From Pseudopyrenochaeta lycopersici (Eukaryota; Ascomycota; Dothideomycetes; Pleosporales; Pseudopyrenochaetaceae): a stretch of 64,000 nt of DNA. Where the stretch lies: contig NHZP01000050.1 in the NCBI GenBank assembly GCA_003313425.1, positions 273,073 to 337,072 of the forward strand. The letters run 5' to 3'. The position numbers and the translations under genes are program-made. The notes below the pieces were generated by a model. The model had not been told where the DNA came from. It did not search any database and worked only from the letters and a program-made list of their open reading frames with translations. Positions 31,343 to 64,000 of this stretch are shown piece by piece; the first letter of the stretch is position 1; each line of letters opens with the position of its first letter.

Positions 31343-31554
<212 letters not shown>

Positions 31555-31560
31555 AGGGCG

Positions 31561-31600
<40 letters not shown>

Positions 31601-35125: not shown

Positions 35126-37290
35126 TATAATTTATATAGTATTTATAAAAGAATAGTTAACTAGTTTAAATAAGAAAAAAGAAGAAGAAAGTAAAGTAAT
35201 TTAATATAAGATATTAGAAAGAGAGTAAATAATAGATAGCTGTATTTAATAAGAAAAAGAAGAAAGAGAGTAAAGTAATTTAATATAAGATATTAGAAAG
35301 AAAGTTAAGAATCGCTAGCTACTTTAAATAATATATAGAATAGCTATAATTAGGTTAATTTTTAGAAAAGTTAAGTTTATATATAAGTTTTAGTAGAAAA
35401 TACTATATAAATAATAATAGTAAGAAGCTATTGTATATAAAACTATTCTAGAAATATAGTAGTATAACTTTTATAGTAGTATAATAAAAAGTTATTAAAA
35501 TATAATAGTTAAAAGATAAAAAGAAAAGAAGAAGAAAAGTATTAGACTTAATAATTAATAATATTATAGTAAAGAATAGTTTTTAAAGTAAAGTAGATAA
35601 AATAGTCGTAAAGAAGAATATAGTAAGTAAAGTAGTAGTAGGTAAAGCAGGAGTAAGTAAAGTAGAAGATAAAATAGTAGTATATAAGATAGTAGAAAGT
35701 AAGGTAGTAGAAAGTAAGATAGTAGAAAATAAGATAGTAAGTCAAAGTATAGCTAAAGTAGTACTAAGTAAAAGAGTAGATAATATAGTAGTAGGTAATA
35801 TAGTAGATAAAGTAGTAGATAGGAAAGTAGTAGGTAAAGTAGTTAATAAGTAAGTAGGTAAAATAAAAGTAGATAAAGTAGTAGTAAAAGAAGTAAAAGT
35901 AAATAATAGGTTAGGAGTATTAATAGGAAAAAAGAAGAGAAAAGTAAAATAATTAAAATATAGTATAAGGACAAGTAAATAATAAGTAATTATAATTAAA
36001 AGAAAGAGGTTAAAAAGAGTAAAGTAATAAAAGATAAGTTAAAAAGTGCAAAGTAATAAAATAGAGGTTAAAGAAGAATAGATAGTAAGTAAGTAGTATT
36101 ACTTAGAAAAAAAAAAGATAGTATAATAATATAAAAGAGTATAGTATATACAGTTATTATAAGTAATAGAGTAGATAGTATAGTAGAAGTAATATTATAA
36201 AAGTTTAGAATTTAAAAAGAATAAAATAGTAGGAATAGTTTTAAAGTTAATAAGAATAATTAAAGTAGGTAGTAAGTAGTTAAAGACTAAGTAGTAAATA
36301 GTTTTATAAAAAAAACAAAAGTAAAGTAATATAATATAGTAGAGAAGAATAGTAAGTTATAAGTAATAGAGTAGGTAGTATAGTAGAAGTAGTAAAATTA
36401 AGATTTAGCATTTTAAGAAAATAGGACAGTAGAAATAGTTTTAAATTTATTAAGAAATATTATTTAAAGTTAGTATAAGTAGATAGTAGTACGTAAAAAG
36501 TAGTTTTATGTTATTAAGGTTAAAAAAAGGAAAGTAATAGAATATAGTATAAGAGTAGAAAGATAGTAGGTATATAGTTTATAGTTTTAGTTAGTTAAAA
36601 AAGAGATTAGTAATTTAATATAGTATAGAAGGAGATAGATAGTAGAGTTTTAGTTTGTAGTTTTATAGAGTTAAGAGTTAAGAAAACAAAGTAATAGTAT
36701 AGAAGTAATGGTATAGAAGTAATAGTATAGAAGTAATAGTATAGAAGTAATAGTATAGAAGTAATAGTATAGAAGTAGATAAATAGTAAGGTTTTCGTAA
36801 GTAGTATTATAGAGAAAAGAAAAAGAAGAGTACAGTAATTATATAAAGTATTAAGGGAGAAAAATAGTAGGGATTCGCTAACTAGTTTTATAGGAGTAAG
36901 AGTTAGGAGAGTAAAGTAATATAATATAGTATAGAGAGAGATAAATAGTAGGGATTTACTAACTAGTTTTATAGGAGTAAGAGTTAGGAGAGTAAAGTAA
37001 TATAATATAGTATAGAGAGAGAAAGATAGTAGAGATTTGCTAACCGCTTTTATAGAGATAAGAAAGAGGAGAGCAAAGTAGTATAATAGAGTATAAAGAG
37101 AGAAAGATAATAAGTTTTCGCTAAGTAGTTATATAAGGTAAAGAGTTAGGAGAGTAAAGTAATATAATATAGTATAGAGAGAGTAAGGTAGTAGGGGTTC
37201 GGTAACTAGTTTTATAGGGTAAGGAAGGGGGGAGTAAAGTAATAAGGTATAGTATAAAGAGGGAAAGATAGCAGAGATTTGCTAACCCAT
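35126..37290. repeat. Purine-rich, AT-rich decayed tandem repeats
   Basis: The + strand is almost free of C and made of A, G and T (aagtaatataatatagtata, gtagtaaagta). A 15-bp repeat (GTATAGAAGTAATA) has about five copies at 36,705-36,778. A longer repeat of about 80 bp (for example starting AGTTAGGAGAGTAAAG at 36,901 and 36,982) runs to about 37,290. No coding sense. Probably C-depleted, RIP-decayed continuation of the helicase repeat. Confidence 0.6.
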
Positions 37291-37829
37291 GGCGGTAACT
37301 GGAATCAGATCTAATTCCAGTTTTTTGTTAATGACCAGATATTTAAGGTTTGCGGGAGATTGTGTCACGTAGCCAGAGTCTAGTATACTTTAAACTACAT
37401 TCCAGTTAGGTTCCCATTAGCTTATATACCCTAAATTTAAGTATGTTAATTAGCGCATTAAGTTCTATGTTCCGTTTAATTTGCATCCCTATAACCTATG
37501 TAGTTAAGGTTATTAGGGTTGCGTGTTAAGGGTTAGGGTTAAGTTAGTAAGGCTATTAGTGCGCAGCAACACCGTTAGTGCGTAACAAACACTAGAAGAT
37601 TAGTATCAGAGCAGGTTCTGATATAATAAGGAGCAATCATAAAAACAAATATATAACTCGCTACGCAGCAGAAAATAGGGGATAAGGAATATAAGTAATG
37701 TATAACCCGCAGTAAAGTATTATTAATAGCACGCAATTATTTTGCACCCGTTAAGCAGCTAGTAACCCGTTGCTGTCATCTATTTTAATTTAATCCCACT
37801 AGTGCAGTTTAAATACAGCGAGAATGGCA
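37291..37829. other. Upstream segment of helicase relic B, with telomere-like motif
   Basis: No gene. Contains GTTAAGGGTTAGGGTTAAG at about 37,525-37,543, a short degenerate internal copy of the telomere repeat in the same orientation as the chromosome end. Confidence 0.5.
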
Positions 37830-47129: not shown

Positions 47130-47540
47130 GAAGGTTCTCCTAACTTATAGAAGTCCCCTAACCTGTAGAAGGCCCCTAACCTGTAGAAGGCCCCTAACCT
47201 GTAGAAGACCGCCTAACCCGTAAAATACTCCCCCAACCTGTAAAAGTCCTCTAACCCGTGAAATACCCCCTAACCTGTAGAAGACCGCCTAACCTATAAA
47301 ATACTCCCCTAACCCGTAGAAGACTACCTAACCTGTAAAATACCCCCCTAACCTGTAGAAGACCGCCTAACCTATAAAATACCCCCTAACTAGTAGAAGA
47401 CTGCCTAACCTATAAAATACCCCCCTAACTTATAGAAGACTGCCTAACCTGTAAAATACCCCCTAACCTATAAAAGACTGCCTAACCCGTAAAATACCCC
47501 CTAACCTGTAGAAGGCCCTCTAACCTGTGCAGGTAGGGCA
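47130..47540. repeat. 18-20-bp tandem repeats containing CCTAACC
   Basis: About 21 variants of CCCCTAACCTGTAGAAGG and CGCCTAACCTATAAAATAC. The CCTAACC core equals the C-rich telomere strand, so the block is inverted relative to the chromosome end. Related motifs continue more thinly to about 48,120. Confidence 0.85.
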
Positions 47541-48164: not shown

Positions 48165-48185
48165 GTTAGGGTTAGGGTTAGGGTT
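48165..48185 (+). repeat. Internal telomere repeat tract
   Basis: GTTAGGGTTAGGGTTAGGGTT, same orientation as the chromosome end, joined without any gap to the first unit of the array (CCTTTCACTAG). It looks like a former telomere. Confidence 0.93.
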
Positions 48186-49761
48186 CCTTTCACTAGAAAG
48201 TTGTCAAGTGGTCACCAGCCTTGCGCTGGAGACCCTCGACACTTTACACGTATGCGTTGCCAACGAGTGGAACGAGTACCGAAGGGTTAGTCTTGAATAA
48301 GACTAGAGGCATAAGCCCCTGTAAGTAAGCCAGAGCACGGACGGTGCGGGTCGTTTGACCTTGGTTTGCCCACTCTTTTTCGGAATTTTATTCTGATTGG
48401 TCTATGAATGTAGACGCAGGGACGGGGCACCACATTGCCTGCTAGGGACTAGGTGGTCTTGGCATTGCGCAAGACAGAGATGTATAAGAGGGGAGCCCCC
48501 TCTCCCGCGCATGGGCTCTATTCCCCTGGGGGATTCTCTTACTGCAGCGTATGCTGTTTCCTGGTGGGACGCATTTTGCGCGCGACACGGAAGTGGTTTG
48601 ATGTGGATCGTAGCCGTGAGAGTGTCTCTATAGGCACTTTTCTTGTTAACATTGCGGAGCTATGAAGAGGACGTTGTCTGAATGGGTCTCGGAACGAAGG
48701 ACGTCATGCGAGGATGCGGCGCGACTGCTGAGAAGCTTTTCTGTTTGGCTGAATACGTGGCCTATGCCAGACGCAGTGGTCAGGCTGGAGGACGCTGACG
48801 AAGTACGGTTCGTGAGAGATCACGTGCCTGGTAAGTGTCTCTTTTATTATCCTTTCTAGACACGGAAGAAGTTGGGGAGCCCAACTGATAGACACACAGC
48901 TTTGGTGGAACAGGATGTGTCGTTGGTCTGCGTTGTGTCCGCAAACCGTGCTACGTGGTGGTTGACTCGGTTGCCCCTACGGCCTGTGGGGAAGAACAGG
49001 TGGCGGGCTTTGGAGACTGCTGAAGGCGAAGGCGTCTTTGGAGAACGTAGTCCCTCGTCTCACATTGTTGTGCAGGTCCTTGGAGGGCCCTGGTGTGGAT
49101 GCGCTGTCAGGGAGACTCTCTTTCATGCTAAGCTTAGTCAACGGTCGTTGGATGCTGTGGTGACCAATATTTTGGGGCGCGCTAAATGGGGCGTAGCCTT
49201 TGAGCCTTTAGTAAGAGGCTGCTTGGAGTGTAAGCAGTGGGAGCGCGCAGTTGATGTTCTCGTTGGTGGCGGTTTTCGTGGAGGCGCCTTCTGTGTATGT
49301 TGTATGCATGAAGTATGCCCTGATTGCACTGGGAGTAGCGACGGTCGGCTTCGAAGCTTTGATGCGCAGGTGGACCCTGATAAACCTGTCTGGGTTGTTA
49401 GGACGATGTGATGGCGTTTTGGTATGGAATTTCTTTGGCTGTACAGACGTAAAGAGTACAAGGTGCGTTTATACAGTGTATAATGTAATAGTAGGTTATA
49501 GTAACAGAGTGTAGGTATGAGTTATTTTATTTAACTGTGTTATGGTAATGTGTACATTATTGTCGTTGTGTATTGCGTGTCGTTCAGTTATGAAGGGCGT
49601 CCACATCCTTAGGATGGAACACCATCTCCAAAGAAAAAAAAATGCGTAAGTCCATTTTCCGTGTGGCTGGAGGGCACGCCGAGTCAGCAGGAGATGTGGC
49701 ACATGGGGGGGCACGGGCCCCGACTCAACTTTCTAGTGTGGCGTTTTGCCTATATATGATT
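48186..49761 (+). repeat. Array unit U1 (class A cargo)
   Basis: 1,576 bp. The first hairpin stem is CCAGC/GCTGG. The second stem (48,288-48,305) is TAGTCTT/AAGACTA. TATA box TGTATAAG at 48,481. Confidence 0.9.
48662..49411 (+). CDS. Class A array protein, U1
   Basis: Exons 48662-48830 and 48900-49411 (681 nt, 226 aa); 69-nt phase-1 intron with GTAAGT donor and the hairpin GTTGGGG-AGC-CCAAC before a CTGATAG branch-like site. Exon 1 ends in VRFVRDHVP, like exon 1 of the other units. Exon 2 begins LVEQDVS and has the C-terminal cysteine cluster CVCCMHEVCPDC. It is the most divergent class A member: the WLTKESG block is replaced by WLTRLPL and the usual EWLSC ending is absent. Function unknown; no signal peptide or TM helix. 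Driven by the TATA box about 180 nt upstream; short upstream ATGs occur, so the start is less sure than in the other units. Confidence 0.68.
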
Positions 49762-49779
49762 CCTTTCACTAGAAAGTTG
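49726..49779. other. Unit-junction inverted repeat (U1/U2)
   Basis: CAACTTTCTAGTG (49,726-49,738) and CACTAGAAAGTTG (49,767-49,779) form a perfect 13-bp stem around a 28-nt loop. The left arm belongs to the end of one unit and the right arm to the start of the next. Within the loop a smaller stem GGC-(n)-GCC varies in loop and flank (GGCGTTTTGCC, GGCGAACCGCC, GGCGTTCTGCC). The same arrangement recurs at junctions near 51,310-51,362, 52,867-52,918, 56,022-56,074, 57,591-57,643, 60,743-60,797 and 62,320-62,372. At U4/U5 and U7/U8 the left arm is imperfect. At the last unit only the left arm exists, because the telomere follows. Confidence 0.85.
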
Positions 49780-51344
49780 TCAAGTGGTCGAGAGCCTTGC
49801 GCTCGGGACCACGACGGCTTTACCTGTAAGCTTTGGCCGCCTACGGAGTGGGCAGTGGAACGTTAAACTACTCGTAGTTTAGGGGCAATGCACTTAGTAA
49901 GCGCAGCATGACATGGATATGTTGTCAGATGACGTTGCTGAGCCTGATTTCTTTGATCTTTGATCTAATTGGTCTATGAATATGGACAGCAGGGAGTGTG
50001 CAGGACTCTGCCATCTAGGGACTAGGTGGTCTTGGCGTCGCGCAAGGGCTGGATAGGTATATATATAAGGGGGGGAAGGCCCTCCCCCCGCTCACGGAGT
50101 GTGATGTTCATTAGAACAGGTTGGTACCCTGCTGAGGATCAGCCTGGCTAGTGGGCCTGTTGTTGTGGAGTGTTCCACTACTTAGCTGGCAGTGTGCCAG
50201 TTACGAAGGAGCCGTTGGGCGAAGTATTGTCGGATTTCGACGTGCGTTGGTGACGCTCTAGGTACTTGGTTAAGTACGGTATGGACGATGCGGTGTTGCT
50301 ATGGGTTGCAGCCCTTGCTTATGCCCAAGGAGGCCTTTTAGTGTGGCTGCTGTGGACAGCGGGCCGTGTCTATCGCAGGCTTCGACGGAGGCGGCTGGTT
50401 TGTTACAGTGGAGCTTTGTACCCGGCGTGTGAGTCCGCTGACGACAGGTTAGGGTCTTGCCCGTGTTCGGCTTGCAGTCACGTGGAGCGTGGTCACGGTG
50501 GTGGTGGTAAGCAGCGCGTTCGTTCTTCTTGCTGTGTTTGACCAAGTTGGTCTTATGTGGAGCTGTAGCGCCCGGTTAGGTGGCCTCGGGGCGCTTTTAG
50601 CATGGTTGGCGGTGGTCTATCAGGTATGGGGACTACTCTGGATCCTGCTTGTGCTCAGCTATCCTGTCACGTCTTTTGGGCGGAGGCGACGTGCGTATAC
50701 AAGTGTTGTTCTTGTATTCTATGGCGTTGTAGTGCTGTGGCTGGTGGCAAGCTCGTGTTAGCCATCCACCTGTTCCTACAGAGTGTATAGCATTTTCCTG
50801 CTGTTTTTTAGCGTGCACTATTCACTGCGGAGCGTGTGGGGGTAGGGAGCGCACGGTATTGTTATTCGCTGGTAGGAGAACGATGCATTTGTGTGAGAGT
50901 TAGGGTCGCTTACTATTAGTAGAACATGGTTTGTCGTACGTATGTGGTTGTATGGTAGACTGCGATGAGAACGCTCTACTCGTCATGCTTCCGCCCCTCG
51001 TAGACGTGCGCGAATGTCTGGAGATAGCCGGTACGTAGGGTTTAGATTTTATTGTTAGTGAAGCTGATGTGTGTAGTATAGTATTGTTCTTCAGGTTAGG
51101 GTGCGTGCACAGAGGGAAGCGTGGTTGGTAGTAGTTACTATTTGCGTGCAGTATTTTGGAAAAAAAACCAAAAAAAAATCACGAAGTGCTCCAGGGTGTG
51201 GCGCAAAAAAAAGTTGTCAGTTGCCCTGTGCGCAGTTTAGCGCGGTTCTGGAGGTACATGCCGTTCAGGCATTCCTTGGTGTGCGGGGAGGTCACTCCCC
51301 AGCCACGACAACTTTCTAGTGTGGCGTTCCGCCTATATATGATT
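49762..51344 (+). repeat. Array unit U2 (class B cargo)
   Basis: 1,583 bp and, as far as I compared, identical to U5. The 5' block has stem AAACTAC/GTAGTTT (49,865-49,880); TATA box TATATATATAAGG near 50,058. Its 3' part differs from the class A units: the CTAAGT hairpin is missing and A-rich runs lie at 51,160-51,215. Confidence 0.92.
50281..50761 (+). CDS. Class B array protein, multi-TM, U2
   Basis: Two open frames can be joined by a 40-nt intron (50,507-50,546, donor GTAAGC, acceptor CAAG), giving 441 nt, 146 aa. The protein has a hydrophobic segment (VLLWVAALAYAQGGLLVWLLW), a basic cluster (RRLRRRRLV), a cysteine loop (CPCSACSH), then two or three more hydrophobic segments (ALLAWLAVVYQVWGLLWILLVL and SVVLVFYGVVVLWLVASS) split by GRRRRA. 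It is probably a small integral membrane protein. The intron is unusually short, so a frameshift or two separate proteins (50,281-50,541 and about 50,489-50,761) remain possible. No family recognised. Confidence 0.55.
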
Positions 51345-52900
51345 CCTTTCACTAGAAAGTTGTCAAGTGGTCGGCAGCCTCGCGCTGCCTACCCTGGACA
51401 CTTTACCTGTAAGCAGAGCCTGTGACTGGAGGGAACAACGAAGTGTTAGTCTTGAATAAGACTAGAGGCAATGCACTTACTAAGCATAGCAGAGCACGGG
51501 CGCGTGCTGATCATCGGATCGCTGCTTGCCCACTTTTTTTTTCAATCAGTTGTCTGATTGGTCTATGAATGTAGACAACATGGAATGGGCAGCCCTCTGC
51601 TAACTAGGGACTAGTAACTCTTGGCGAAGACAGCGTGGATATCACGGTATATAAGCAGGGGAGGGCCTCCCCCGCCCATGGAAGTGATGTTTTTGGTTTA
51701 CTCCAAATGACGATGGCGTCGTCACCCAGAGTGCACATCTCTACGGAGCATGATGGAAGTGTTTCTAGCGTACAGCTGGAGCGTGTTTTGTCGGGGATCG
51801 ACTGCCTTGTAGAAGGAATTCGAGGGGAAGCTATTGCAGCGAGTGCATCTAGCTTACATTGTGTGCGGGCGCACATAGACAGTATGTTCTCTTTTTGTAG
51901 ATGTTTTAGTAGTTGGGCGGAGGTCCCCCAACTAACGGAGTAGCAGAGTTGGTGGAGCAAGGCATCTCTTTTACGTTTCATCTAAAGCCGGATGGCGCCT
52001 TAGACGTATGGCTCACTCGGGAGAGCGGGCAGGCTCCTCGCCAGTGTTCTGCGCCCAATGTGTGTGGGTGCTATTTTGGAAATTGTGCGTCTGCCGACAA
52101 TGCCCTGACTGCATTTCTTGTCTGGAGAGCAGATGTTGTAGGAGAATACAATCAAGTGCGGAGCATGGTTGTGTTCGCGAAGCTCTGTTCCGATACATTT
52201 GATGTATTCATCAAAAGCGTGCTGCCTTGTGTGTATACACGTGATAGGGATCTTGTGCAGGCGGAGGACGTGGATACGCTGTTTGGTTTGCTAGACGTAG
52301 GCGGATTTTCCAGTAGCGTGGGGTGCGGGTGCACATTGCGAGAGCATTGTCTGTCCTGTTTGTCGTTGCGTTTTAATCGGCAACGTTTCACGAGATGGGA
52401 CATGTTCAGTGGGCCATTCCCATGTGGTCCAGACGGCTGGTTTCCTGGGTACAGTGATGCGGTTGGAATTGTACAACCGTTGGCGCTTGACTGGCTCACA
52501 TGTCCGCATATTGCGTTATCGTCTACTTTGTCTATTGACGGTGCACTTAGTAATTGTTCTGTAGATGAGTTACTATGGATGACTATATTTAGGAATGATT
52601 GAGTTTTGTTGGATAGACCATGGAAGAATGGTTGATTTGTAGCATTAGTACGTGCGGTAGTAGAATTCTGTTGTTAAGGTATGCATGGCTGTGGTACGGC
52701 ATAGTACTGTGCAATATTCTGGGAAGCGAAGGCTGACATTAGCGTAGGGTGGTTAATGGAACATCGAACCTTCAAAAAAATTGGCTAAGTCCAATTTCAC
52801 AGTGGCTGGAGGCCATGCAGAGTCACGTTGGCTGTGGCGCAGATCGTGCGCACAGACCCCGACTCAACTTTCTAGTGTGGCGAACCGCCTATATATGATT
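51345..52900 (+). repeat. Array unit U3 (class A cargo)
   Basis: 1,556 bp, the shortest unit. The first stem is GGCAGC/GCTGCC, the second AGTCTT/AAGACT. TATA box GTATATAAG near 51,646. Confidence 0.9.
51707..52602 (+). CDS. Class A array protein, U3
   Basis: Exons 51707-51881 and 51947-52602 (831 nt, 276 aa); 65-nt phase-1 intron with hairpin AGTTGGGCGG/CCCCCAACT followed by CTAAC. Exon 1 ends in CVRAHID. Exon 2 has KLVEQGISFTFHLKPDG, WLTRESGQAPRQC, a middle helix and the cysteine cluster VGCGCTLREHCLSC, then DWLTC. Its C-terminus runs about 40 residues beyond the usual WLSC ending. An upstream ATG at 51,678 opens a 10-codon frame that closes before 51,711. Function unknown. Confidence 0.72.
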
Positions 52901-53346
52901 CCTTTCACTAGAAAGTTGTCAAGTGGTCAGGAGCCTTGCGCTCCTTGACCCCTGACACTTTACACGTATGCGTTGCCACGACTGGAGGGAGTACCGAAGG
53001 GTTAAACTAGAATTAGTTTAGAGGCATAAGCCCCTGTAAGCAGAGCAGAGCACGGACGTGGCGTGTCAGATGACGCTGCTGTGCCGCATTTTCTTTCAAT
53101 CAGGCTTCTGATTGGGCTATGGACATAGACGCAGGGACGGGGCAGCCCATTGCCTGCTAGGGACTAGGTGGTCTTGGCATTGCGCAAGGCAGAGATGTAT
53201 ATAACATGAACAGTGGAGCTGTTGTAACGGAGTGTTCTACACAATGTAGTTTTTTTTTTTACGTTGCGGTAGCCGTACTTCCTGGGAAGGATACCATCGT
53301 TGGTAGGTCGAACACGTAACGTCACGTGTGAGTTCCCAAGAGAGAG

Positions 53347-54047
53347 ATGGTTCTCGAAGGGTGTGCAGAGTGTATAGACCCGTTGGTGTCTGGTAGTAAG
53401 GCGGAGCCTTTTGTAGGGACAGAAAGCCAAATTCAAGGGGTGCGGATGCACATTCAACGTATGTGGATGTTCTCTTCCCGAGTTGGGGTCCCCCAACTAA
53501 CAGTTGTGTAGATCTTGTGGAACAGAAGACTTCTGTGACTTGCCATGTGAAGCGGGATGGTGAACAGGTTTGGTGGCTTACCGTCCCACCCAGCGTCAGT
53601 TCTGAGGGCTTGGAGAGCTGTGATTGTCTCAGGCGGGGGCGCATCTGTGGGCCGTTCTCACGGCTTTTGTTGCAGGTGGAGACCGTAAAACCGGATGGCA
53701 CCCCACGTCGCATGGTTGCGTTTGGGGATCTTTCGGTGGAGGCGCTGGATGCGGTTGTAACGGGTGTTTTGCCGCGTCTTGTGCAGCAGGATGGGGCCCT
53801 GCTTGGGAACTCAGTCAAGGTGATGGAGTTTTTTGAGACACGCTTGGCAGGTCTAGGGTCTCCGCAGATATCGGAGGAACCACCATCTCTCAAAAAAATG
53901 GCTAAGTCCATTTTCCTTGGTGCCCGTGGGTTTACGGCGTGTGATCGCTGTGTAGAGAGCGTTGCGCGAGCTTTTGAGGTAGCTTTGGCCGCGGAATTGT
54001 CGCCTCCGCTCCCCAACCATACTGTATCATTAACACGACGGATGTAG
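53347..54047 (+). CDS. Class A array protein, U4, with altered C-terminus
   Basis: Exons 53347-53458 and 53512-54047 (648 nt, 215 aa). The 53-nt phase-1 intron carries TTGGGG/CCCCAA followed by CTAAC; the acceptor is TGTAG (53,511). The N-terminal half matches the family (GVRMHIQ, LVEQKTSVTCHVKRDG, LSVEALDAVVTGVLP). The C-terminal half does not: after about 53,860 the frame runs through a copy of the normally non-coding 3' hairpin block (protein PSLKKMAKSIF). A new Cys pair (CDRC) follows, ending LTRRM. The conserved CxC...CxxC cluster is lost. This looks like a recombinant or exapted gene. Confidence 0.68.
53895..53914 (+). other. Copy of the 3' CTAAGT hairpin inside the U4 gene
   Basis: AAAATGG-CTAAGT-CCATTTT, the same stem-loop that lies in the non-coding tail of other units, with compensating stem bases (TTGG/CCAA in others, ATGG/CCAT here). 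Confidence 0.75.
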
Positions 54048-54473
54048 TCTGGCTGTTGTAACGAACAGTGGTAATATTTGTGAGTAGTAGAGAGGATGTT
54101 CTTTAGTTATGGATATACAAGGAGGGCGGTAGCATGTGGAGGATTGTGCGCAATGTTTTTATTTTGTCGCTCTTTTTGTTTTCTTAACTTCTTTTTCTAA
54201 GACAAAAGTTGTACGCAGGAATGAGTGCTGACTGTATTATGTAGGTGTTATTGGATTGTGCGAACAATGCATTATTATTTATACCGAAGCTATATTGTGG
54301 GGGGTGTCGACCCTGTTGATGTTCCATCAATTCTGTCTCAAAATTGGCTAAGTCCGATTCCTGTGTGGCTGGAGGCGATGCTGGGTCACATGGGGGCTGT
54401 GGCGCGGGGAGCGCAGACATGGGTTGTGTTGGGCACGGGCCCCTTCCCTCAACTTTCTTGTGTATATATGATT

Positions 54474-56056
54474 CCTTTCACTAGAAAGTTGTCAAGTGGT
54501 CGAGAGCCTTGCGCTCGGGACCACGACGGCTTTACCTGTAAGCTTTGGCCGCCTACGGAGTGGGCAGTGGAACGTTAAACTACTCGTAGTTTAGGGGCAA
54601 TGCACTTAGTAAGCGCAGCATGACATGGATATGTTGTCAGATGACGTTGCTGAGCCTGATTTCTTTGATCTTTGATCTAATTGGTCTATGAATATGGACA
54701 GCAGGGAGTGTGCAGGACTCTGCCATCTAGGGACTAGGTGGTCTTGGCGTCGCGCAAGGGCTGGATAGGTATATATATAAGGGGGGGAAGGCCCTCCCCC
54801 CGCTCACGGAGTGTGATGTTCATTAGAACAGGTTGGTACCCTGCTGAGGATCAGCCTGGCTAGTGGGCCTGTTGTTGTGGAGTGTTCCACTACTTAGCTG
54901 GCAGTGTGCCAGTTACGAAGGAGCCGTTGGGCGAAGTATTGTCGGATTTCGACGTGCGTTGGTGACGCTCTAGGTACTTGGTTAAGTACGGTATGGACGA
55001 TGCGGTGTTGCTATGGGTTGCAGCCCTTGCTTATGCCCAAGGAGGCCTTTTAGTGTGGCTGCTGTGGACAGCGGGCCGTGTCTATCGCAGGCTTCGACGG
55101 AGGCGGCTGGTTTGTTACAGTGGAGCTTTGTACCCGGCGTGTGAGTCCGCTGACGACAGGTTAGGGTCTTGCCCGTGTTCGGCTTGCAGTCACGTGGAGC
55201 GTGGTCACGGTGGTGGTGGTAAGCAGCGCGTTCGTTCTTCTTGCTGTGTTTGACCAAGTTGGTCTTATGTGGAGCTGTAGCGCCCGGTTAGGTGGCCTCG
55301 GGGCGCTTTTAGCATGGTTGGCGGTGGTCTATCAGGTATGGGGACTACTCTGGATCCTGCTTGTGCTCAGCTATCCTGTCACGTCTTTTGGGCGGAGGCG
55401 ACGTGCGTATACAAGTGTTGTTCTTGTATTCTATGGCGTTGTAGTGCTGTGGCTGGTGGCAAGCTCGTGTTAGCCATCCACCTGTTCCTACAGAGTGTAT
55501 AGCATTTTCCTGCTGTTTTTTAGCGTGCACTATTCACTGCGGAGCGTGTGGGGGTAGGGAGCGCACGGTATTGTTATTCGCTGGTAGGAGAACGATGCAT
55601 TTGTGTGAGAGTTAGGGTCGCTTACTATTAGTAGAACATGGTTTGTCGTACGTATGTGGTTGTATGGTAGACTGCGATGAGAACGCTCTACTCGTCATGC
55701 TTCCGCCCCTCGTAGACGTGCGCGAATGTCTGGAGATAGCCGGTACGTAGGGTTTAGATTTTATTGTTAGTGAAGCTGATGTGTGTAGTATAGTATTGTT
55801 CTTCAGGTTAGGGTGCGTGCACAGAGGGAAGCGTGGTTGGTAGTAGTTACTATTTGCGTGCAGTATTTTGGAAAAAAAACCAAAAAAAAATCACGAAGTG
55901 CTCCAGGGTGTGGCGCAAAAAAAAGTTGTCAGTTGCCCTGTGCGCAGTTTAGCGCGGTTCTGGAGGTACATGCCGTTCAGGCATTCCTTGGTGTGCGGGG
56001 AGGTCACTCCCCAGCCACGACAACTTTCTAGTGTGGCGTTCCGCCTATATATGATT
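54474..56056 (+). repeat. Array unit U5 (class B cargo, duplicate of U2)
   Basis: 1,583 bp; matches U2 base for base wherever I compared, including the A-rich runs near 55,870-55,925. A very recent single-unit duplication or conversion, with no RIP changes. Confidence 0.92.
54993..55473 (+). CDS. Class B array protein, multi-TM, U5
   Basis: Same as the U2 protein (start MDDAVLLW, intron 55,219-55,258, end WLVASSC; 146 aa). The conclusions and doubts about the short intron given for U2 apply. Confidence 0.55.
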
Positions 56057-56078
56057 CCTTTCACTAGAAAGTTGTCAA

Positions 56079-56107
56079 GTGGTCAGGAGCCTTGTGCTCC
56101 TGGCTAC
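56079..56107 (+). ncRNA. Candidate structured RNA hairpin, 5' block (best-paired copy)
   Basis: GTGGTCAGGAGC / GCTCCTGGCTAC pairs over 12 bp around the loop CTTGT. The same position in other units has different but still pairing bases: CCAGC/GCTGG (U1, U8), GGCAGC/GCTGCC (U3), AGGAGC/GCTCCT (U4, U9, U10). The loop stays CTTGC, CTCGC, CTTGT, CTCGT or CCCGT. Several independent compensating changes point to a selected RNA (or single-stranded DNA) structure. Two further hairpins of the block show the same behaviour: AAACTA/TAGTTT and CAATCAG/CTGATTG. The block lies upstream of the TATA box, so it would be transcribed from the previous unit or another promoter. No known ribozyme or RNA family recognised. 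Confidence 0.6.
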
Positions 56108-56430
56108 GACGGCTTTACCGTTAAACTTGTCACGCCTACGGAGTGGGCAGCGGAGCGTTAAACTAGAATTAGTTTAGGGGCAAGTACTTAGTAAGCAGAG
56201 CAGAGCACGGACCGTGTGAGTCAGATGACGCTTCTTTGCCACTCTTTTTTTCAATCGGACTTCTGATTGGTCTATGGACGTAGACGCAGGGACTAGGCAC
56301 ACTCGTGCTTACTAGGGACTAGACTATCTTGGCGGCGCGCAAGAGCTGGATGTATAAGACGGGAGGCCCTCCCTCCATTCACGGAGGTGGTGTCTTTCCT
56401 TGGTCAACTCCTCGTTGACTGCGATGGGTG

Positions 56431-57220
56431 ATGGAGTCGCCGCATGGAGTGAGTTCTCTTGCTTCCACCAAGAGGCGGTCGATAGACACACTGGAACCAG
56501 GTGTGCGCGGAGAGCCGTTTGAAGGGACTGATGTTAATATACAGTGGGTGCGGGAGCACTTGCACGGTAGGCGCTTTTTCGTTGTAAACAAGTTAGAGAT
56601 GACTAACTAACTTGATTTTGTTTTCTGGGACAGAGCTTGTGGAACAAAGAATATCGATGACGTGCCATAATAGAGAAGATGGCCGCGTATTGTGGTGGCT
56701 CACTCGGGAGAGCGGGAAGCCTCCTCAGCAGTGCGTGGAGGAACAACATGACGGATGTCTTAGGGGCCATGTTGATTCTATTTCCCTCGGCGATAGTCGG
56801 CAGGCCTTGCTTGTTTTTAAGGTGGATACCTCGATAAGTGGTCGCTGCCAGAGCATTGTCTTCTTTGCTCGGCTCTCGGAAGAGACACTCGATGTGTTTG
56901 TGCAACGTGTGTTGCCTCTTGTGGTGTTGCCAGGAGGGCACGCTGCAGATGTGCAGTTGTTGCTCGCAGTGTGCGCTGCGTTGGAGAACGGGCGGTTTTC
57001 TAGCAGCGCGTTGTGTGGTTGTACCTTGTATGAAGGTTGCGTATGCTGTGCGGCGCTCACGAGAAAGCAGTGGCGGTTCGAGCGTTGGGATAGATTTCAC
57101 TGCATACGTCCGAACGAAGACTCAGCGTGGTTCGCTGGGGTCAGTGATGCTCCTGGTACAGTGTACCCGTTTGGGGTCGAGTGGCTGCGTTGTTGGTATG
57201 CGGATGCATCTCAGTGTTAA
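56431..57220 (+). CDS. Class A array protein, U6
   Basis: Exons 56431-56566 and 56634-57220 (723 nt, 240 aa); 67-nt phase-1 intron with CTAAC sites, acceptor GGACAG. It starts MESPHGVSSLAS after GTG; exon 1 ends FEGTDVNIQWVREHLH. Exon 2 has LVEQRISMTCH, WLTRESGKPPQQCVEEQH, LSEETLDVFVQRVLPLVVLPGG, the Cys cluster LCGCTLYEGCVCC, RFERWDRF and WFAGVSDAPGTVYPFG, then EWLRC. Typical full-length member. Function unknown; the CxC(x5)CxxC cluster could bind zinc. Confidence 0.78.
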
Positions 57221-57625
57221 CTGGGAGTGTTTTTTATGCAGTATATAAACGAAGTTTTGCTACGATGTTAAGAATTGGCATGGTAAGGGCGGGAGCGCTT
57301 ATACAGTAAGTGTCTTAGAATAATTGAATTTTAAATTTTATTTAATTTTTTAGGAATATACCTTATAATAATAAGGGTAGTGCAAGAGTATCGTATTGGT
57401 AGTAGACGGGGAACGTCGTATGAATTTAGTTGGACTCAGTAAGGTAAGTTATTGTTGTGGAACAACCAAAAAAAAAACGGTAAGTCAAAAAAAAATCCCA
57501 AAATTTTTGGCTAAGTCCACAGGAACTGTGGCTGGAGGCGATGCTGGGTCACATGGAGGTGTGGCACACGGGGTGCACGGGCCCGGCCTCAACTTTCTAG
57601 TGTGGCGTTTTGCCTATATATGATT

Positions 57626-59214
57626 CCTTTCACTAGAAAGTTGTCAAGTGGTCGAGGAGCCCCGTGCTCCTTGACCCCTGACACTTTACACGTAGGCTTT
57701 GGCCGTGACTGGAGGGAACAGCGAAGCGTTAAACCACCTGGGGTTTAGGGCCATTGCCCCCTGTAAGCAACGCGAAGCACGGACGTAGCGCGAGATCATC
57801 TGGTCTCTGGGTTGCCACACCTGTTAAATCTATGATTTGATTGGTCTATGAATGTAGACATAGGGAGTGTGCGTTTCTTCGCTCACTAGGGACTAGGTGC
57901 TCTTGGCATGACTTGATGGATGTCAATATATAAGTACAACAGGTGCGCTGTTGGCACGGATGTGGTGCAGATCCCGTAAGGGACTTTTTTTTCTACTGGA
58001 CTGCGATGGAATTGCGCCGAGGAGCGGATGCTTTAGGCACGAATATATCCCCGTCTATTAGAGATGGGTTAGAGGAGGGGAGCTCTTCCATGTTGTCCGT
58101 AGGGACAGAAGCAGAGTTTAACGTAGTGAGGGATCACGTATCTAGTAAGAGTCTCTTTGGTTGTCTAGAGACTGAATTAGTTGGGCCCCTAAGTAACAGC
58201 GTAGCAGCTTTAGTGGAACTTGGAGTGTCTCTCACTTTCCACATAGACCCGCATGGCATGCGACATGGGTGGTTAACCAAAGAGAGTGGGAAACCCCCTC
58301 GACGGTGTGTGGAGGAACAACACAGGTCTTGTCTATACGAGTATGGGCGGTTTATTGCCGAGGGTGGGACTCGGCAGTCTGTCCTAGTTTTCAAGGTGGA
58401 CATCCTCAGGTACGGGGTAATGCGGAGCCTGGTTGCGTTTGCGCAGCTCTCGTTAGAGGCACTTGACGTGCTTTTACAGCGCGTTATTCCTCTTATCACA
58501 ACGCCGGAAGGGCAGTTAGTAGAGGCTTTTGCTGTTGATGAAGTGCTGCACTTGTTGGACAGTGGATGGTATAGCACCAGCGTGGATTGCGGGTGCACAC
58601 CAGGGAAGAGGTGTAAGCCTTGTGTATCTGTAGAGGATAGTCCGCCACGGTTTCACCGGCTAGATCGATTCTACGGCGTATGGCCGTTTGGAGAGGAAGA
58701 TTGGTTTACTGGGATCAGCAGCGCCGTTGGAAAACTGGAGCCACATGGTATAGACTGGCTGAGTTGTTCGTAGGGCAGGTGTATTGTTAAGAGAGGAGGT
58801 ACCCTGTTTGCCTTATGGAATGGCGTTGGTATATTTGAGTAACGGAAGTATGATATTTTATATAGGAAGGGATAGATAGAGTGGTATTTTTCAGTTGGTA
58901 TCTAGTAAGATAGTAAGTACGTGTTTTATTTTATTTGTGTTTAAAAATAAAGTCGTTGTATATTGTAACATAGACTAACTATTGTACGAGGTTTTGTAGA
59001 GAAGCAAGAACACTAAAGAGTTGGGGGTGCGGAGCGTTGTTGTTAAGGGTGCGAACCCTAGGATGGAAAATCCAAAAAAAATTGGCTAAGTCCGATTTCA
59101 CAGTGGCTGAAGGCCATGCAGAGTCACGCTGGGTTGCTGTGGCGCGGGGAGCGCAGACATGGGTTGTGATGGGCACGGGCCCATTCTGTCAACTTTCGAG
59201 TGCTATATATGATT
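57626..59214 (+). repeat. Array unit U7 (class A cargo)
   Basis: 1,589 bp, the longest unit. The second stem (57,731-57,746) is AAACC...GGTTT, differing from other units by paired C-G changes. TATA box AATATATAAG near 57,925. Confidence 0.9.
58006..58773 (+). CDS. Class A array protein, U7
   Basis: Exons 58006-58144 and 58208-58773 (705 nt, 234 aa). The 63-nt intron is a multiple of three without a stop, so retention would give a 255-aa protein. Starts MELRRGADALG in good context (GCGATGG); exon 1 ends VRDHVS. Exon 2: LVELGVSLTFHIDPHG, WLTKESGKPPRRCVEEQH, RQSVLVFKVD, LSLEALDVLLQRVIPL, cluster VDCGCTPGKRCKPC, RFHRLDRFYG and WFTGISSAVGKLEPHG, then DWLSC. Closest to the family consensus. Function unknown. 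Confidence 0.8.
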   Translation: MELRRGADALGTNISPSIRDGLEEGSSSMLSVGTEAEFNVVRDHVSSKSLFGCLETELVGPLSNSVAALVELGVSLTFHIDPHGMRHGWLTKESGKPPRRCVEEQHRSCLYEYGRFIAEGGTRQSVLVFKVDILRYGVMRSLVAFAQLSLEALDVLLQRVIPLITTPEGQLVEAFAVDEVLHLLDSGWYSTSVDCGCTPGKRCKPCVSVEDSPPRFHRLDRFYGVWPFGEEDWFTGISSAVGKLEPHGIDWLSCS

Positions 59215-59585
59215 CCTTTCACTAGAAAGTTGTCAAGTGGTCACCAGCCTCGTGCTGGAGACCCTGGACACTTTACACGTATGCGTTGCCAACGAGTGGA
59301 ACGAGTAGCGAAGCGGTAGACTACTTGTAGTTTAATGGCAAAAGCCCCGGTAAGCAACGCGAAGCACGGACCGTGTGAGTCAGATGACGCTGCTTTGCCT
59401 CATTTCTTTCAATCAATCATTTGATTGGTCTATGAACGTAGACATAGGGACGGGGCACTCCGGTGCTCCCTAGGGACTAGCATCTCTTGGCATTGCATAA
59501 GACAGAGATGTATATAACAAGAACAGGGGAGCTGTGTTCACGGAGTGTTGCATTTACTTAAGGGACGCTTTTCGTCTACTTTGCG

Positions 59586-60376
59586 ATGGAGTCGCCACAG
59601 GGAGTGCAGGCCGTTGCGGGGTCCGCCAGCACAGCCATGTTCCCATCTATCGTAGATGGGTTGCAGGAAGGATCTTCTTGCGCGGTGTCTGTAGGGACAG
59701 AGGCAGAGCGGCAAGGCGTGAGAGATCACGTGCCCCGTAAGTTATGTCTTTTCTTCGTTGGAGATGTCAGTTGTGGAGCCCATCTGACATGAGTACAGTG
59801 TTTATGGAACGTGGTATTTCTCTCACATTCTGTGAGGATGTGTCGGGCAGACAAACATGTTGGATTACTAAGGAGAGCGGACGCCTTCCTACCGAGTGTG
59901 TGGAGGAACAGCATACGGAGTGTTTAAACTACCACAAGGAACGTTGTGTACAGGGGGCAACCCGGCAGGCGCTTCTTGTCCTCAAAGTGGAGGCGCTCGA
60001 TCAGGATGGGGTGGTGCGGAGCCATGTTACTTTTGCTCAGCTGTCTTCGCTGGCACTGGAGGTGGTTGTGCAGCGCATTTTACCTCTTCTCGTATTGCCC
60101 TCCGGCGAGACGGCGGATATCTCTGTTGTTACTACAGTGTTCAAGTCGTTTGATCGTGGGTACTATAGTACGCGGGTGGACTGCGTGTGTACTGGTAACA
60201 GTAGGTGTGAGCCTTGCGCGTCGGTACGTTACCAGTCACGAAGGTTCGTTTGGGTAGACCGATTCCATCGTTTATGGTGGCCGGCAAGGATAAGTTGGTT
60301 TGCTGGACTCAGCGATGCCGTAGGAAAAGTACAACCCGACGGCGTTGAGTGGCTCTCCTGTCGTGGATGGTCGTAA
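59586..60376 (+). CDS. Class A array protein, U8
   Basis: Exons 59586-59736 and 59799-60376 (729 nt, 242 aa); 62-nt phase-1 intron with GTAAGT donor and CTGAC branch site. Starts MESPQGVQAVAG; exon 1 ends GVRDHVP. Exon 2: FMERGISLTF, DVSGRQTCWITKESG, CVEEQHTECL, RQALLVLKVE, VDCVCTGNSRCEPC, RFVWVDRFHRLW, WFAGLSDAVGKVQPDG, and EWLSCRGWS at the end, shared with U10. Function unknown. Confidence 0.8.
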
Positions 60377-60656
60377 CCACGATGTAGTCTGTCAGTGTTA
60401 TATCTTGGTAAGAGAAGGGTGGACGTTGGATCTATGTGTATAGGTATACATTTTTTAATAATGAGTACACGTTGTATAGTATGAATTTTTTATTTCTCTT
60501 GAATACAAAGTTACTATATATTGTAATATATACTAACCTTATTATGTAGGGGTTGTACGGTAGTAGGAACAACAAATCAGAATTTGTGGTGCGCAGCTTC
60601 GTCAGTAAGGGTGTGGGAGCCCTTAGGATGGAACACCATCTCTCAGAAAAAAATAA

Positions 60657-60677
60657 AAAATTGGCTAAGTCCAATTT
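60657..60677 (+). other. 3' block stem-loop with invariant CTAAGT loop (U8 copy)
   Basis: AAATTGG-CTAAGT-CCAATTT. Other units keep the loop but change the stem in pairs (TTGG/CCAA, ATGG/CCAT). A second hairpin just upstream is GATGG-AACA-CCATC (GGAT/ATCC in U7), and before it AGGG/CCCT. Together they form the conserved 3' block of about 150 bp before the unit end. Confidence 0.65.
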
Positions 60678-61093
60678 TGTTGTGGCTGGAGGCGATCCCA
60701 GGTCACATGGAGGTGTGGCGCGAAGAGGGCACGGGCCCATCCTCAACTTTCTAGTGTGGCGTTCTGCCTATATATGATTCCTTTCACTAGAAAGTTGTCA
60801 AGTGGTCAGGAGCCTTGCGCTCCTTGACCCCTGACACTTTACACGTAAGCAGGGCCCGCGAGTGGAACGAGAAGCGGATGCGTCAAGCTACTTGTAGTTT
60901 GGGGCCATTGCCCCCTGTAAGCAACGCGAAGCACGGACGTAGCTTCTAGATCATTCTGATCGTGGGTTGCACGTGAGGAGCACTCTTGCCCTCACATCTA
61001 CTAGATGTTCATAGCTATGGACACAACGGAGTGGGCGCATTATGGAATAATAGTCTTGGCAGAGACAGATACCTGGATAGAGTTCGTTATACT

Positions 61094-61279
61094 ATGGAGT
61101 GTAACGCTTATAAGGAAACGGGTGTGTCCCGTTACCTTTCCTTATTACCAATTTTTTTTGCGTCTATTTACAGCGTGTACCGGGTACCGCTCGTACTAGA
61201 GGTATCGAACGTAGCTTGGTGGAGGCAGTTCTTGTTCTTGGACATGTTGTCAGCGTGTAGCGCCCATGATGAGTGCTGA
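61094..61279 (+). CDS. Class C cargo ORF 1, U9 (hypothetical)
   Basis: 61 aa, MECNAYKETGVSRYLSLLP..., with one hydrophobic stretch (LLPIFFASIYSV). It overlaps the next small frame by 14 nt (ATGATGAGTGCTGA). No family recognised; may be one exon of a larger gene. Confidence 0.35.
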   Translation: MECNAYKETGVSRYLSLLPIFFASIYSVYRVPLVLEVSNVAWWRQFLFLDMLSACSAHDEC

Positions 61280-61858
61280 TAAGGCGTACGTCGCGGAAGC
61301 GTTACGCAGTTGTATTGTAGGACGTATGTCGGTCGATAGCCTGGTAGGGCTAGTTTGCGGTGCGTATGGTTTCGGATACCACTGGTACACTATCCGAAAC
61401 AACCTTTCTTCCCTTTTGTCAAGGCATGGCGATGCTGCTTAGTGGAATGGATTTTGAGTAGAGTGACAGGTACTGCTAGTGGGTGCTGGGGAGGCACCGC
61501 GGTTTCGGTACGACTGTCCGTTGTTCGCGATGAGGCAGGATGCGTAGGCATGCGAGCGTCAGTGATGCGCCCGCGTTCATCCTTTCTGTATTGGACGAAG
61601 CGTTGTCACGTAGTGCATGGCAAGACGTTGCCGTTACATTTGTCTGAGGGAGGCACTGCTGCGGAGCGTGTGCGTATTTGTTTGTGGCTGCTCCTTGTGG
61701 AGCTTTGCGTAGTTGCGTCGGAGGAGGATGAATTCTCCTCTTGGATTTCACATCGTTACTTGTTGTGTGGAGCACCTTTTATGGGAATTACGAGGGCTCC
61801 GTTCGCGTGGGGGGCCTTCGTAGTATGCGTAGCTATAGTAGTATGGGGGGCTACCTGA
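61266..61858 (+). CDS. Class C cargo ORF 2/3, U9 (hypothetical, splicing unclear)
   Basis: A frame starting MMSADKAYVAEALRSC (61,266-61,442) overlaps a longer open frame (about 61,355-61,858, no ATG near its start). The latter contains LSVVRDEAGCVGM, WTKRCHVVHGK, a hydrophobic stretch (VRICLWLLLVELCVVA), an acidic turn (SEEDEF) and a C-terminal hydrophobic segment (AWGAFVVCVAIVVWG). An intron probably links them, but I cannot fix its ends. It could be a membrane protein. No relation to class A or B seen. Confidence 0.4.
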
Positions 61859-62354
61859 CCCTGGGAGGTGTTTGTATGTACATACAGAGAGGGTTTGTTA
61901 CATAGTATACTATGCATTTATCTAGTCTATACGATATTTATGTTGGTATAGTGTATCATTACCATTATGGTAATAGTAGATGTATATCTCTTAGTATACG
62001 TAGTCAGAGTGTGTAGGTGTCGTAATAACTACGTCTGGTTACGAATAACAGCATAGTTTTTTATATACATAGAGTATAATACCATTATACTATGCATTAT
62101 AGCTAGTTATAAACAGAGCGATTCTATAGTGTTGATGTGTAGAGCGTTTTAATAGTTTCAGGGCTAAGAAATAATTTGATTGTATGGATATTTGGTAGAA
62201 ATTGGGGTGTGAGCCCTTGTAGATGGAACACCATCTCCAAAGAAATTGGCGAAGTCCGATTTTGCTGTGGCTGGAGGTCACGTTTTACCGGGGTGCTGAA
62301 AAATTTTTCAGCCACGACTCAACTTTTCTAGTGTGGCGCAGCCTATATATGATT

Positions 62355-63927
62355 CCTTTCACTAGAAAGTTGTCAAGTGGTCAGGAGCCTTGCGCTCCTT
62401 ACCCTTGCCACTTTACACGTAAGCTTTGCCTGCGATTGGAGATCGCAACGGAGTGTTAAACTAGAATTAGTTTAGAGGCAATGCACTTAGTAAGCAGAGC
62501 AGAGCACGGACGGTGCGGGTCATCTGACTCTTCTTTGCCACTCTTTTTTTCAATCAGTCATTTGATTGGTCTATGAATGTAGACAACATGGAATGGGCAC
62601 TCCGCTGCTTACTATGTAGTAGTTGGTCTTTGCAGGGTGCAAGAGACAGAGGTATATAATAATAACAGGGGAGCTGTTTGTACGGAGTGTCTTTTTTTCA
62701 TTCTTTTTGCTTTGCGATGGAGTCGCTACAGGGACAGGGTGCTCCCATAGAGGCTATGGATGATAGTCGCTTGTTAGCAGTAGATACGCTCTTGCCTGGC
62801 GAGAAGGGGGAGCCCTTTCCTGGGACAGCCAACAATCTTCAATGGGTGCGGAGGCACGTTCAACGTAAGTATGTACTTCTTTTCTCAGGTTGGGTATCCC
62901 CTCCCAACTGATATCGTCACAGAGCTGGTGGGACACTGCGTTTCTCTTACTCTCTATCTCGATGTGTCGGGGAGACAATCCGCGTGGTTGACCAAGGAGA
63001 GCGGGCAGCTCCCTCGACAGTGTATTTCTCAGAAGCACCGGTTTTGTCTGGAGGACTATAAAGAACTCTGTGCACAGGGTACCACCCGGCAGTCTCTCCT
63101 GGTCTTCAAGGTGGATACGTTGGTTAGGGGCGTGGTGTGGAGCTATGTTGCGTTTGCGCAGCTCTCGTTAGAGGCACTGGATGTGCTGGTGGAGCGCGTT
63201 ATCCCTCTTCTTGCATTGCCTAGTGGGCAAGCTGCGGATGCTTCTTCTGTTACGGTACGTAGATTGTTCTACGTTTTAGAGGAAGGGTGGTATAGTACGC
63301 GGGTCGACTGCGCGTGTACTGTTAAAAGTAGGTGTGAGCCTTGTGGGTTTTTATCCCATACATCACCAAGGTTTGTTCGTCTAGACCGATTCTACCGTTT
63401 ATGGCGGTCGTCAAGGACATGTTGGTTTGGTGGACTCAGCGATGCAGTAGGAATAGTACAACCGTCAGGAGAGGACTGGCTCTCCTGTCGTGGATGGTCG
63501 TAACCACGATGTAGTTTGTTTGCCTTATGGAATGGCATTGGTAATGCTATAGTCTTTGAGACAGAGTACATGCTGACTTTGTGCTTTTTATAATACGTTA
63601 GTATCATAAAGCTCTATGGTATAGTATAGCCTATTTGTGTAGGAGAATAGGTATGTTTATTGTATTTTACTTTTTTTTCGTATTAGAAAATAGGACTGAT
63701 TTAGTAATGGTAGGGCTCTTCTGGAAACGAAGAAATCGTGGTGCGGAGCTTCATTGTTAAGGGTGTGGGCGCCCTTGGGATGGAACATCAAATCTCTCAA
63801 GAAATTTTGGCTAAGTCCAATTTCCCTGTGGCTGGAGGGCCATGCAGAGTCACATGGAGATGTGGCACATGGGGGGGCACGGGCCTCCCTGACAACTTTT
63901 CTAGTGTGGCGCAGCCTATATATGATT
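62355..63927 (+). repeat. Array unit U10 (class A cargo), telomere-proximal
   Basis: 1,573 bp. The first stem is AGGAGC/GCTCCT; TATA box GTATATAATA near 62,653. Ends TATATATGATT and joins the telomere directly, so the right arm of the junction hairpin is absent. Confidence 0.92.
62717..63503 (+). CDS. Class A array protein, U10
   Basis: Exons 62717-62864 and 62923-63503 (729 nt, 242 aa); 58-nt phase-1 intron with GTAAGT donor, hairpin GTTGGG...CCCAAC and CTGAT branch site. Starts MESLQGQGAPIEAMDD in GCGATGG context; exon 1 ends NNLQWVRRHVQ. Exon 2: LVGHCVSLTLYLDVSGRQ, WLTKESGQLPRQC, RQSLLVFKVDTL, LSLEALDVLVERVIPLL, VDCACTVKSRCEPC, RFVRLDRFYRLW, WFGGLSDAVGIVQPSG and DWLSCRGWS. Likely a functional gene about 0.4 kb from the telomere. 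Function unknown. Confidence 0.82.
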
Positions 63928-64000
63928 AGGTTAGGGTTAGGGTTAGGGTTAGGGTTAGGGTTAGGGTTGGTTAGGGTTAGGGTTAGGGTTAGGGTTAGGG
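63928..64000 (+). repeat. Terminal telomere repeat (TTAGGG)n
   Basis: About 12 TTAGGG copies with two variants (AGGTTAGGG at the start and GGGTTGGTTAGGG near 63,968). G-rich strand runs 5' to 3' off the right end of the window, as at a right chromosome arm. Confidence 0.98.

Follow-up and report, generated by a model that had tools for sequence, protein, structure and literature searches.

What is the DNA that closes this chromosome end of Pseudopyrenochaeta lycopersici, where ten units of one layout carry genes of unrelated kinds? The window analysed here, a stretch of 64,000 nucleotides, is the right end of contig C50 (NHZP01000050.1, positions 273,073 to 337,072) in an assembly of 62.7 Mb and 188 contigs, and the array of units occupies its positions 48186-63927. 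The original prediction, made from the letters of this stretch, described a constant backbone with three unrelated cargo classes and took it for a non-autonomous telomere-resident element or cassette system. We suggest that each unit is a segment, integrated in linear form, of a multipartite single-stranded DNA (ssDNA) virus or of a virus-like replicon descended from one, a reading to which we give a probability of roughly 55%. What had been observed was correct, although far too small in extent, and its interpretation is supported in part.

The ten units are complete and lie head to tail, with lengths of 1556-1589 bases. The unit-start 21-mer occurs ten times within the window as an exact match, a telomere seed stands before the first unit and the terminal telomere after the last. 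As had been described, the classes of cargo number seven A, two B and one C. Each unit starts with CCTTTCACTAGAAAGTTGTCAAGTGG and ends with ...TATATATGATT. An inverted copy of the start motif near each 3' end makes a stem-loop possible where two units meet, with the junction inside the loop, which holds TATATATGATT/CC (here and below a slash marks the junction). The arms of this structure fold in all 36 of the distinct 3' ends tested, each having been joined by script to the start motif, and in many units there is also a small hairpin close to the 3' end. It is proposed that the junction stem-loop may serve as both the origin of replication and the site of joining. No match was obtained when the array was compared with Rfam or when the window was scanned for tRNAs. 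The features are as follows.

48166-48185, + strand: interstitial telomere seed at the array base, (TTAGGG)x3 + TT, read from the sequence
48186-49761, + strand: unit 1, class A (divergent), exon 2 open reading frame (ORF) at about 48860-49411
48212-48470, + strand: 5' block of unit 1, a run of hairpin modules, with an equivalent place in the other units
49738-49780, + strand: example of the junction stem-loop, formed by the unit 1 3' arm, TATATATGATT/CC and the unit 2 5' arm
49762-51344, + strand: unit 2, class B, short hydrophobic ORFs at about 50254-50538 and about 50453-50758, identical to unit 5
51345-52900, + strand: unit 3, class A, exon 2 ORF within 51913-52602
52901-54473, + strand: unit 4, class A (divergent)
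54474-56056, + strand: unit 5, class B, matching unit 2 at 100% identity over 1583 bases
56057-57625, + strand: unit 6, class A, two-exon model with ATG at 56431, exon 1 to 56566 and exon 2 from 56634 (splice sites predicted by a permissive script)
57626-59214, + strand: unit 7, class A, domain modelled with AlphaFold2 in the ORF at 57943-58773
59215-60779, + strand: unit 8, class A, model with ATG at 59586 and exon 2 in the ORF at 59741-60376
60780-62354, + strand: unit 9, class C, with 100% identical units on C61, C65, C92 and C118
62355-63927, + strand: unit 10, class A, adjoining the terminal telomere
63928-64000, + strand: terminal telomere, which follows the unit end immediately, GATT/AGGTTAGGG...

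Just ahead of the array base, at 47155-47528, there is a 19/38-base tandem repeat with telomere-like CCTAACC.

In the assembly as a whole the unit start is abundant. A 15-mer of it has 894 copies and the longer 21-mer 813, and at 1.58 kb each the 894 starts would amount to about 1.4 Mb, or about 2% of the assembly. A chance origin of the unit pattern was rejected, since the reversed-pattern controls gave 0 occurrences in the assembly. No telomere repeats intervene in 832 of the 894 cases, where the start directly follows the unit end TATATATGATT; a further 41 starts follow GGGTT, which brings those accounted for to 873, the other 21 having been inspected only in part. When 100 start places were listed and compared by hand, 98 had a unit-end or GGGTT junction, and one of the remaining two had a variant unit end. 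The other, a lone 15-base unit start at C60:240699, which stands 40 kb inside its contig after AGGTTT and TTAAGG repeats with unrelated sequence behind it, could be either an old relic of the unit system or a chance match.

Telomeric spacers between two units number 19, with one repeat in seven of them, two in two, three in five, four in four and five in one. All 19 exit in the phase GGGTT/CC, in the form GATT/AGGG...GGGTT/CC; the search pattern fixed the entry GATT/AGGG, allowed at most five repeats and left the exit free, and the 19 may include copies of one and the same spacer. The remaining 22 telomeric starts are array bases or longer spacers, and telomeric bases are present in the sequence on C4 (with one extra G), C10, C18, the left end of C23, C50 and C54. 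At all eight ends checked, on contigs whose length is known (C4, C5, C10, C18, both ends of C23, C50 and C54) the units read outward, and on C61 (301 kb) they are found in both of the stretches read, 1-40 kb and 292-301 kb, with further matches between. Thus the block recurs at other chromosome ends, as the original prediction would have it, and a single local duplication with no telomere association is not what this genome contains.

At the tips of C18, C50, C92 and C118 the telomere follows an intact unit end. On C5, C54, C65 and C89 it follows a truncated unit, where the new telomere begins, as judged by eye, at short telomere-like letters. On both C65 and C89 it is the unit of a capsid-like protein, described below, that is cut, at the same base and with the new telomere at ...GGTT, which would reflect either a common end or a preferred site of healing. 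A telomerase gene is present in the assembly (RNA-binding domain PF12009, E 1.6e-44). Read plainly, these junctions point to the addition of single units at chromosome ends, with an occasional action of telomerase between two additions, and to an acceptor end that finished in TT.

The units also behave as members of a defined set. Regardless of cargo their length is 1536-1609 bases, with a mean of 1578.5 and a standard deviation (SD) of 10.8 (n=74; 76 stretches were parsed, and two doubles in which the pattern had missed an inner start were dropped). At 97% identity the 83 complete units, taken from all loci, fall into 49 distinct segments, counts which refer to the sampled units, part of the arrays having been read. 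The Chao1 estimate of the number of segments is 77 from the 83 units and about 88 by the same formula from 74 units, and is to be taken as rough since the sample is not random, some of its loci having been retrieved by searching with the capsid-like protein. Alignments of more than 1300 bases between copies of the same segment are 99.06-100% identical, the differences being mostly insertions or deletions with few substitutions, and a threshold of 97% identity gives the same groups as one of 90%. This combination of near-identical copies and stable grouping therefore describes a set of fixed segments, and no cloud of drifting repeats. The GC skew of the units is +0.21, and TpA/ApT is 1.12-1.18 in the array as against 2.26 in the flank at 44-48 kb. 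An absence of repeat-induced point mutation (RIP) in the arrays was dropped as an argument; the RIP indices are mixed, and copy identity is therefore relied on instead. Elsewhere in the window, positions 35000-37500 are very AT-rich and G-skewed (GC 0.24, minimum 0.22) with low CpA/TpG, resembling RIP-treated repeats. Such RIP-like tracts, together with a gene content that includes a P450, suit a fungal genome.

Within this set parts are exchanged and the order varies. Each of two genes is found with both members of one pair of differing 5' blocks, about 200 bases in length (C61:1086 and C61:4231; C18:1067386 and C61:2622), and outside the swapped blocks the gene pairs are 99.3% and 99.9% identical, from which it follows that segments exchange their 5' parts. 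One segment can have differing neighbours on different contigs, so that single units must have been added and the arrays were not made by block copying alone. Copying of blocks is what would be expected if these were ordinary subtelomeric tandem repeats expanded by recombination, through break-induced replication or unequal exchange, and had never passed through a mobile or viral stage; C61 and C81 do indeed share a series of units in identical order, and duplicates about 11.06-11.09 kb apart occur on C81 and C120. We nevertheless consider such an origin very unlikely, because copying from neighbours would not bring dozens of unrelated genes to one and the same exact junction and would leave the in-phase, whole-repeat spacers unexplained, even if some of these are mutual copies. 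Plain gene duplication was likewise rejected, there being too many unrelated cargoes behind one junction.

The first 300 or so bases of each unit form a row of hairpins, and here the original prediction of a hairpin-rich 5' block is borne out by covariation. Across 48 rows, 92.6% of 1443 cells are paired, compared with 32-42% when the partners are slid by one to three columns, an advantage to be read with the knowledge that the structure was drawn partly from the sequences tested. Cells with a double change number 197 against 60.8 +/- 9.3 after shuffling, and none of 500 shuffles reaches 197. One of the five measures, that of further pair types, is not above the shuffles (45 against 44.2, reached in 227 of 500), and one helix pairs in just 78% of its cells. 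In the same pairs there are 96 G.T wobble cells and 13 A.C cells, whereas the G.T to A.C ratio in the slid controls is 0.8 to 2.4. This excess of G.T indicates that the + strand is the folding strand.

A TATA-like box is present in 33 of the 49 segments as compared with 6% of shuffled stretches, and in 31 of the 33 it lies at 291-322. The hairpin block is thus upstream of its usual position, which favours folding as ssDNA, or perhaps as some other RNA, over folding as mRNA. The backbone did not prove to be constant as had been supposed. The 5' block is a mosaic in which four modules, as cut here, make 46 different combinations among the 49 segments. Full independence of the modules was rejected, as four of the six module pairs are associated beyond all 300 shuffles; only the pair 1 and 4 appears independent, with the pair 2 and 4 on the borderline. 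The 5' modules are therefore shuffled and yet not free.

The claim of three cargo classes is true of the window (class A in units 1, 3, 4, 6, 7, 8 and 10, class B in units 2 and 5, class C in unit 9) and fails for the system as a whole, in which 32 of the 49 distinct segments carry class A, always on the + strand, and 17 carry other cargo. The class A domain of unit 7 has a confident AlphaFold2 prediction with no fold match in the structure libraries searched, and the other 32 sequences of the alignment are 25-56% identical to it. Single-sequence homology searches with the class A proteins of the window gave no match. A profile search found two metagenome relatives, P0001 (E 6.6e-21) and P0002 (E 1.7e-13), whose contigs measure 1134 and 982 bases, and the class A family therefore exists elsewhere. 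An F-box-like part stands ahead of the domain in some class A proteins, with weak Pfam support for one of them (segment C61:12120) and recognised by eye in others, P0001 included. Of the seven class A units in the window, all but unit 10 received a two-exon model from a permissive script that was run without a control; the models for units 1, 3, 6 and 8, with predicted GT-AG introns, appear credible.

A repertoire of this kind could be expected if the segments, once derived from a virus, were now kept by the fungus as a host-owned cassette system, much as wasps keep polydnavirus segments, to supply a range of divergent class A and F-box-like proteins. The very large paralogous family on a single strand, the TATA-like box of the segments' own and the presence of arrays on many ends would all suit such a system. 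It is in our opinion improbable, since near-identical copies and an intact capsid-like gene point to recent spread and not to an old domestication.

The 17 segments without class A, most of which have ORFs on the + strand, several short or split, carry proteins that by eye are membrane-like, acidic or zinc-finger-like and, in one segment, a protein of 353 amino acids. The first 50 residues of this last contain 15 arginines or lysines and no aspartate or glutamate, the net charge after residue 60 is -2, and there are eight intact copies with identical protein sequence. In composition, and on recognition, it looks like the capsid protein of a small ssDNA virus. A Pfam search of one or two ORFs from each of the 17 segments found no replication or transposition family. 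There was no reverse transcriptase, as would be carried by an element of the MoTeR or HeT-A kind, nor any helicase, including the RecQ and Y' families expected of Y'/TLH repeats, and in this the original prediction agrees with the cargo searched. Elsewhere in the window, an ORF at 30931-32211 contains a stretch reading PARRSELL...RW as well as a long run of EQ; the Pfam matches of this ORF fall in the low-complexity run and are not meaningful.

These results bear on two further explanations. The terminal position and single orientation of the units are those of MoTeR and HeT-A, and might be thought to reflect a telomeric retroelement copied from RNA by telomerase or another reverse transcriptase. 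This has the least to commend it of the origins considered and we hold it to be extremely improbable, as the units retain sequence upstream of the TATA-like box, keep what are predicted to be GT-AG introns in class A, and in the cargo sampled with Pfam encode no reverse transcriptase. The second is that of telomere-targeted rolling-circle transposons of the Helitron2 or helentron kind, non-autonomous, with captured genes, a Rep-helicase supplied in trans and insertion at TT. Asymmetrically placed short inverted motifs and a 3' hairpin are features of helentron ends. Such motifs and a small 3' hairpin are present here together with TT at both junctions, and the genome has two Helitron-type loci with long open frames. 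These loci, C28:143500-153000 and C46:102000-111999, are 92.8% identical over 7.8 kb; five of the six other PF14214 matches contain many TAG and TAA stops, as after RIP.

On balance we think a Helitron-type origin unlikely. None of five unit-end motifs occurs, as an exact match, in ten stretches around PF14214 matches, eight of which covered about 3.5 kb only. Dispersed insertion at AT or TT is not seen, 873 of the 894 starts having one of the two junctions described above. Captured cargo would hardly hold its length to an SD of 11 bases, and the capsid-like protein would be left unexplained. It was the capsid-like unit and the near-constant length that led us to drop an initial helentron-like reading of the ends. 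The 49 segments, one of them capsid-like, the near-constant length, the + strand structure and the 832 direct joins fit an ssDNA replicon better than a transposon, and they also tell against the cassette element that had been predicted. What endures of that prediction is that the system resides at telomeres and keeps a single position for a gene while the cargo changes.

If the units are indeed ssDNA segments, it is of interest to know which established systems they resemble. Nanoviruses (Nanoviridae) have segments of about 1 kb, at most about eight to eleven in number, and an F-box protein, Clink. The layout of a single gene on each segment, with a stem-loop common to all, is shared with the present system, and Clink may be set beside the weak F-box match of one class A segment; they differ in that the segments here are about 1.58 kb, with no replication-associated protein (Rep) found and no sequence relation found. 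Anatomically, the nearest known kind is the multisegmented ssDNA mycoviruses, which would seem to work alike. Fusarium graminearum gemytripvirus 1 (FgGMTV1) has three segments. Botrytis cinerea ssDNA virus 1 (BcssDV1) is described in the main text of its report as having four segments of 1669-1707 nucleotides with one ORF each, common regions, a stem-loop origin and a segment for the capsid protein, and that text makes no mention of integration (PMC10731770). Near-equal segments, one gene each and a common stem-loop at the junction are the points of likeness to these two viruses. The differences are the 49 segments, the lack of a Rep among the finds, the mosaic common region and the telomeric integration, and the BcssDV1 nonanucleotide TACTCTT/CA (PMC10731770) is not the same as the loop sequence TATATATGATT/CC. 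Compared with circular Rep-encoding ssDNA (CRESS-DNA) viruses in general, the units are near-equal segments with mostly one gene each and a common stem-loop region at the junction, which would act as origin, and the 353-residue protein, with its basic N-terminal arm and no match in sequence, would be a candidate for their single jelly-roll capsid protein. The Rep of these viruses combines an HUH nuclease with an SF3 helicase.

Telomeric location has its own parallels. In Magnaporthe oryzae the MoTeR elements, as far as described in PMC7367193, lie head to tail at TTAGGG telomeres with telomere tracts between them of half a repeat to more than 20, and truncated ends are healed and chromosome ends recombine. 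Telomeric arrays, tracts between elements, healing of truncated ends and recombination between ends are thus common to both; MoTeR1, however, carries a reverse transcriptase, and here most starts directly follow a unit end. Endogenous geminiviral sequences of plants are integrated nuclear ssDNA-virus DNA, sometimes in tandem, and are similar to the arrays in these respects. To our knowledge they are not found at telomeres, contain Rep and do not comprise dozens of segments. Human herpesvirus 6 (HHV-6), a large double-stranded DNA virus, has its DNA at or near telomeres. Giant-virus insertions near telomeres are reported for Acanthamoeba (PMC12210455). In both cases the viruses are large and double-stranded, and arrays of equal one-gene units are not known.

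The route by which segments of an ssDNA replicon might come to lie at telomeres can be outlined. Each segment of about 1.58 kb would have its gene on the + strand and the common stem-loop, and an initiator of the HUH rolling-circle type would nick the stem-loop at GATT/CC and stay on the 5' CC end. The initiator could then join this end to a telomeric 3' overhang ending in ...GGTT, which would mimic the ...GATT end of the origin itself. The new GATT end might receive the next segment, so that the array grows without telomere repeats, or alternatively might be extended by telomerase to give a telomere, which would become a spacer once a further segment was added; blocks of units would later spread as chromosome ends recombine. 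One-step joining of this kind would explain the outward orientation, the exact junction and the usual lack of telomere repeats, as well as the rare in-phase spacers, the mixed segment order and the telomere seed at those bases that were seen. What we infer here is a viral origin, a circular ssDNA stage, the HUH initiator and the joining to the overhang. The initiator itself may be divergent, may be encoded on a segment that is never integrated, or may be supplied in trans. More tentatively, and at something less than even odds, a DNA virus or virus-like replicon made up of dozens of segments of equal size (49 observed, possibly 80 or more) may join its own origin end to telomeric 3' overhangs, the telomeres being then a reservoir of segments and the chromosome ends being lengthened in concert with telomerase. 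The differing combinations of conserved, exchangeable hairpin variants could act as a code by which each segment is packaged or retained once.

Several points weigh against a viral origin. The 353-residue protein has no similar sequence in the protein collection, IMG/VR, PDB or Pfam, and its single-sequence structure model is too poor for use (predicted local distance difference test score, pLDDT, 36.7). No relative was found in IMG/VR with the 21-mer, the capsid-like protein, the class A profile, P0001 or P0002 as query. The Rep families PF00799 and PF02407 have 0 matches in the assembly, a result that does not show absence as the controls were silent too, and PF00910 has 75 weak, generic P-loop matches, none at a known array place, with matches in control genomes as well. 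We recognise no known origin nonanucleotide in the junction loop, and 49 or more segments would be far beyond any ssDNA virus known to us. The hairpin and wobble evidence would fit a + strand RNA as well. Free molecules or particles, moreover, cannot appear in an assembly. Searches of the literature, from which most subscription papers were out of reach, gave no account of this system.

If the units are what we suggest, they would represent a new route by which DNA enters chromosome ends and is maintained there, in which single segments are added end to end with telomerase as a partner, and the known limit to the number of segments in a DNA virus would be stretched several-fold. The junction rule and the prediction of free molecules are directly testable. 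The system bears on how segments are kept in multipartite genomes and on the lengthening of telomeres by foreign DNA and also, through a class A domain which has no fold match and which sometimes stands beside F-box-like parts, on the origin of new gene families.

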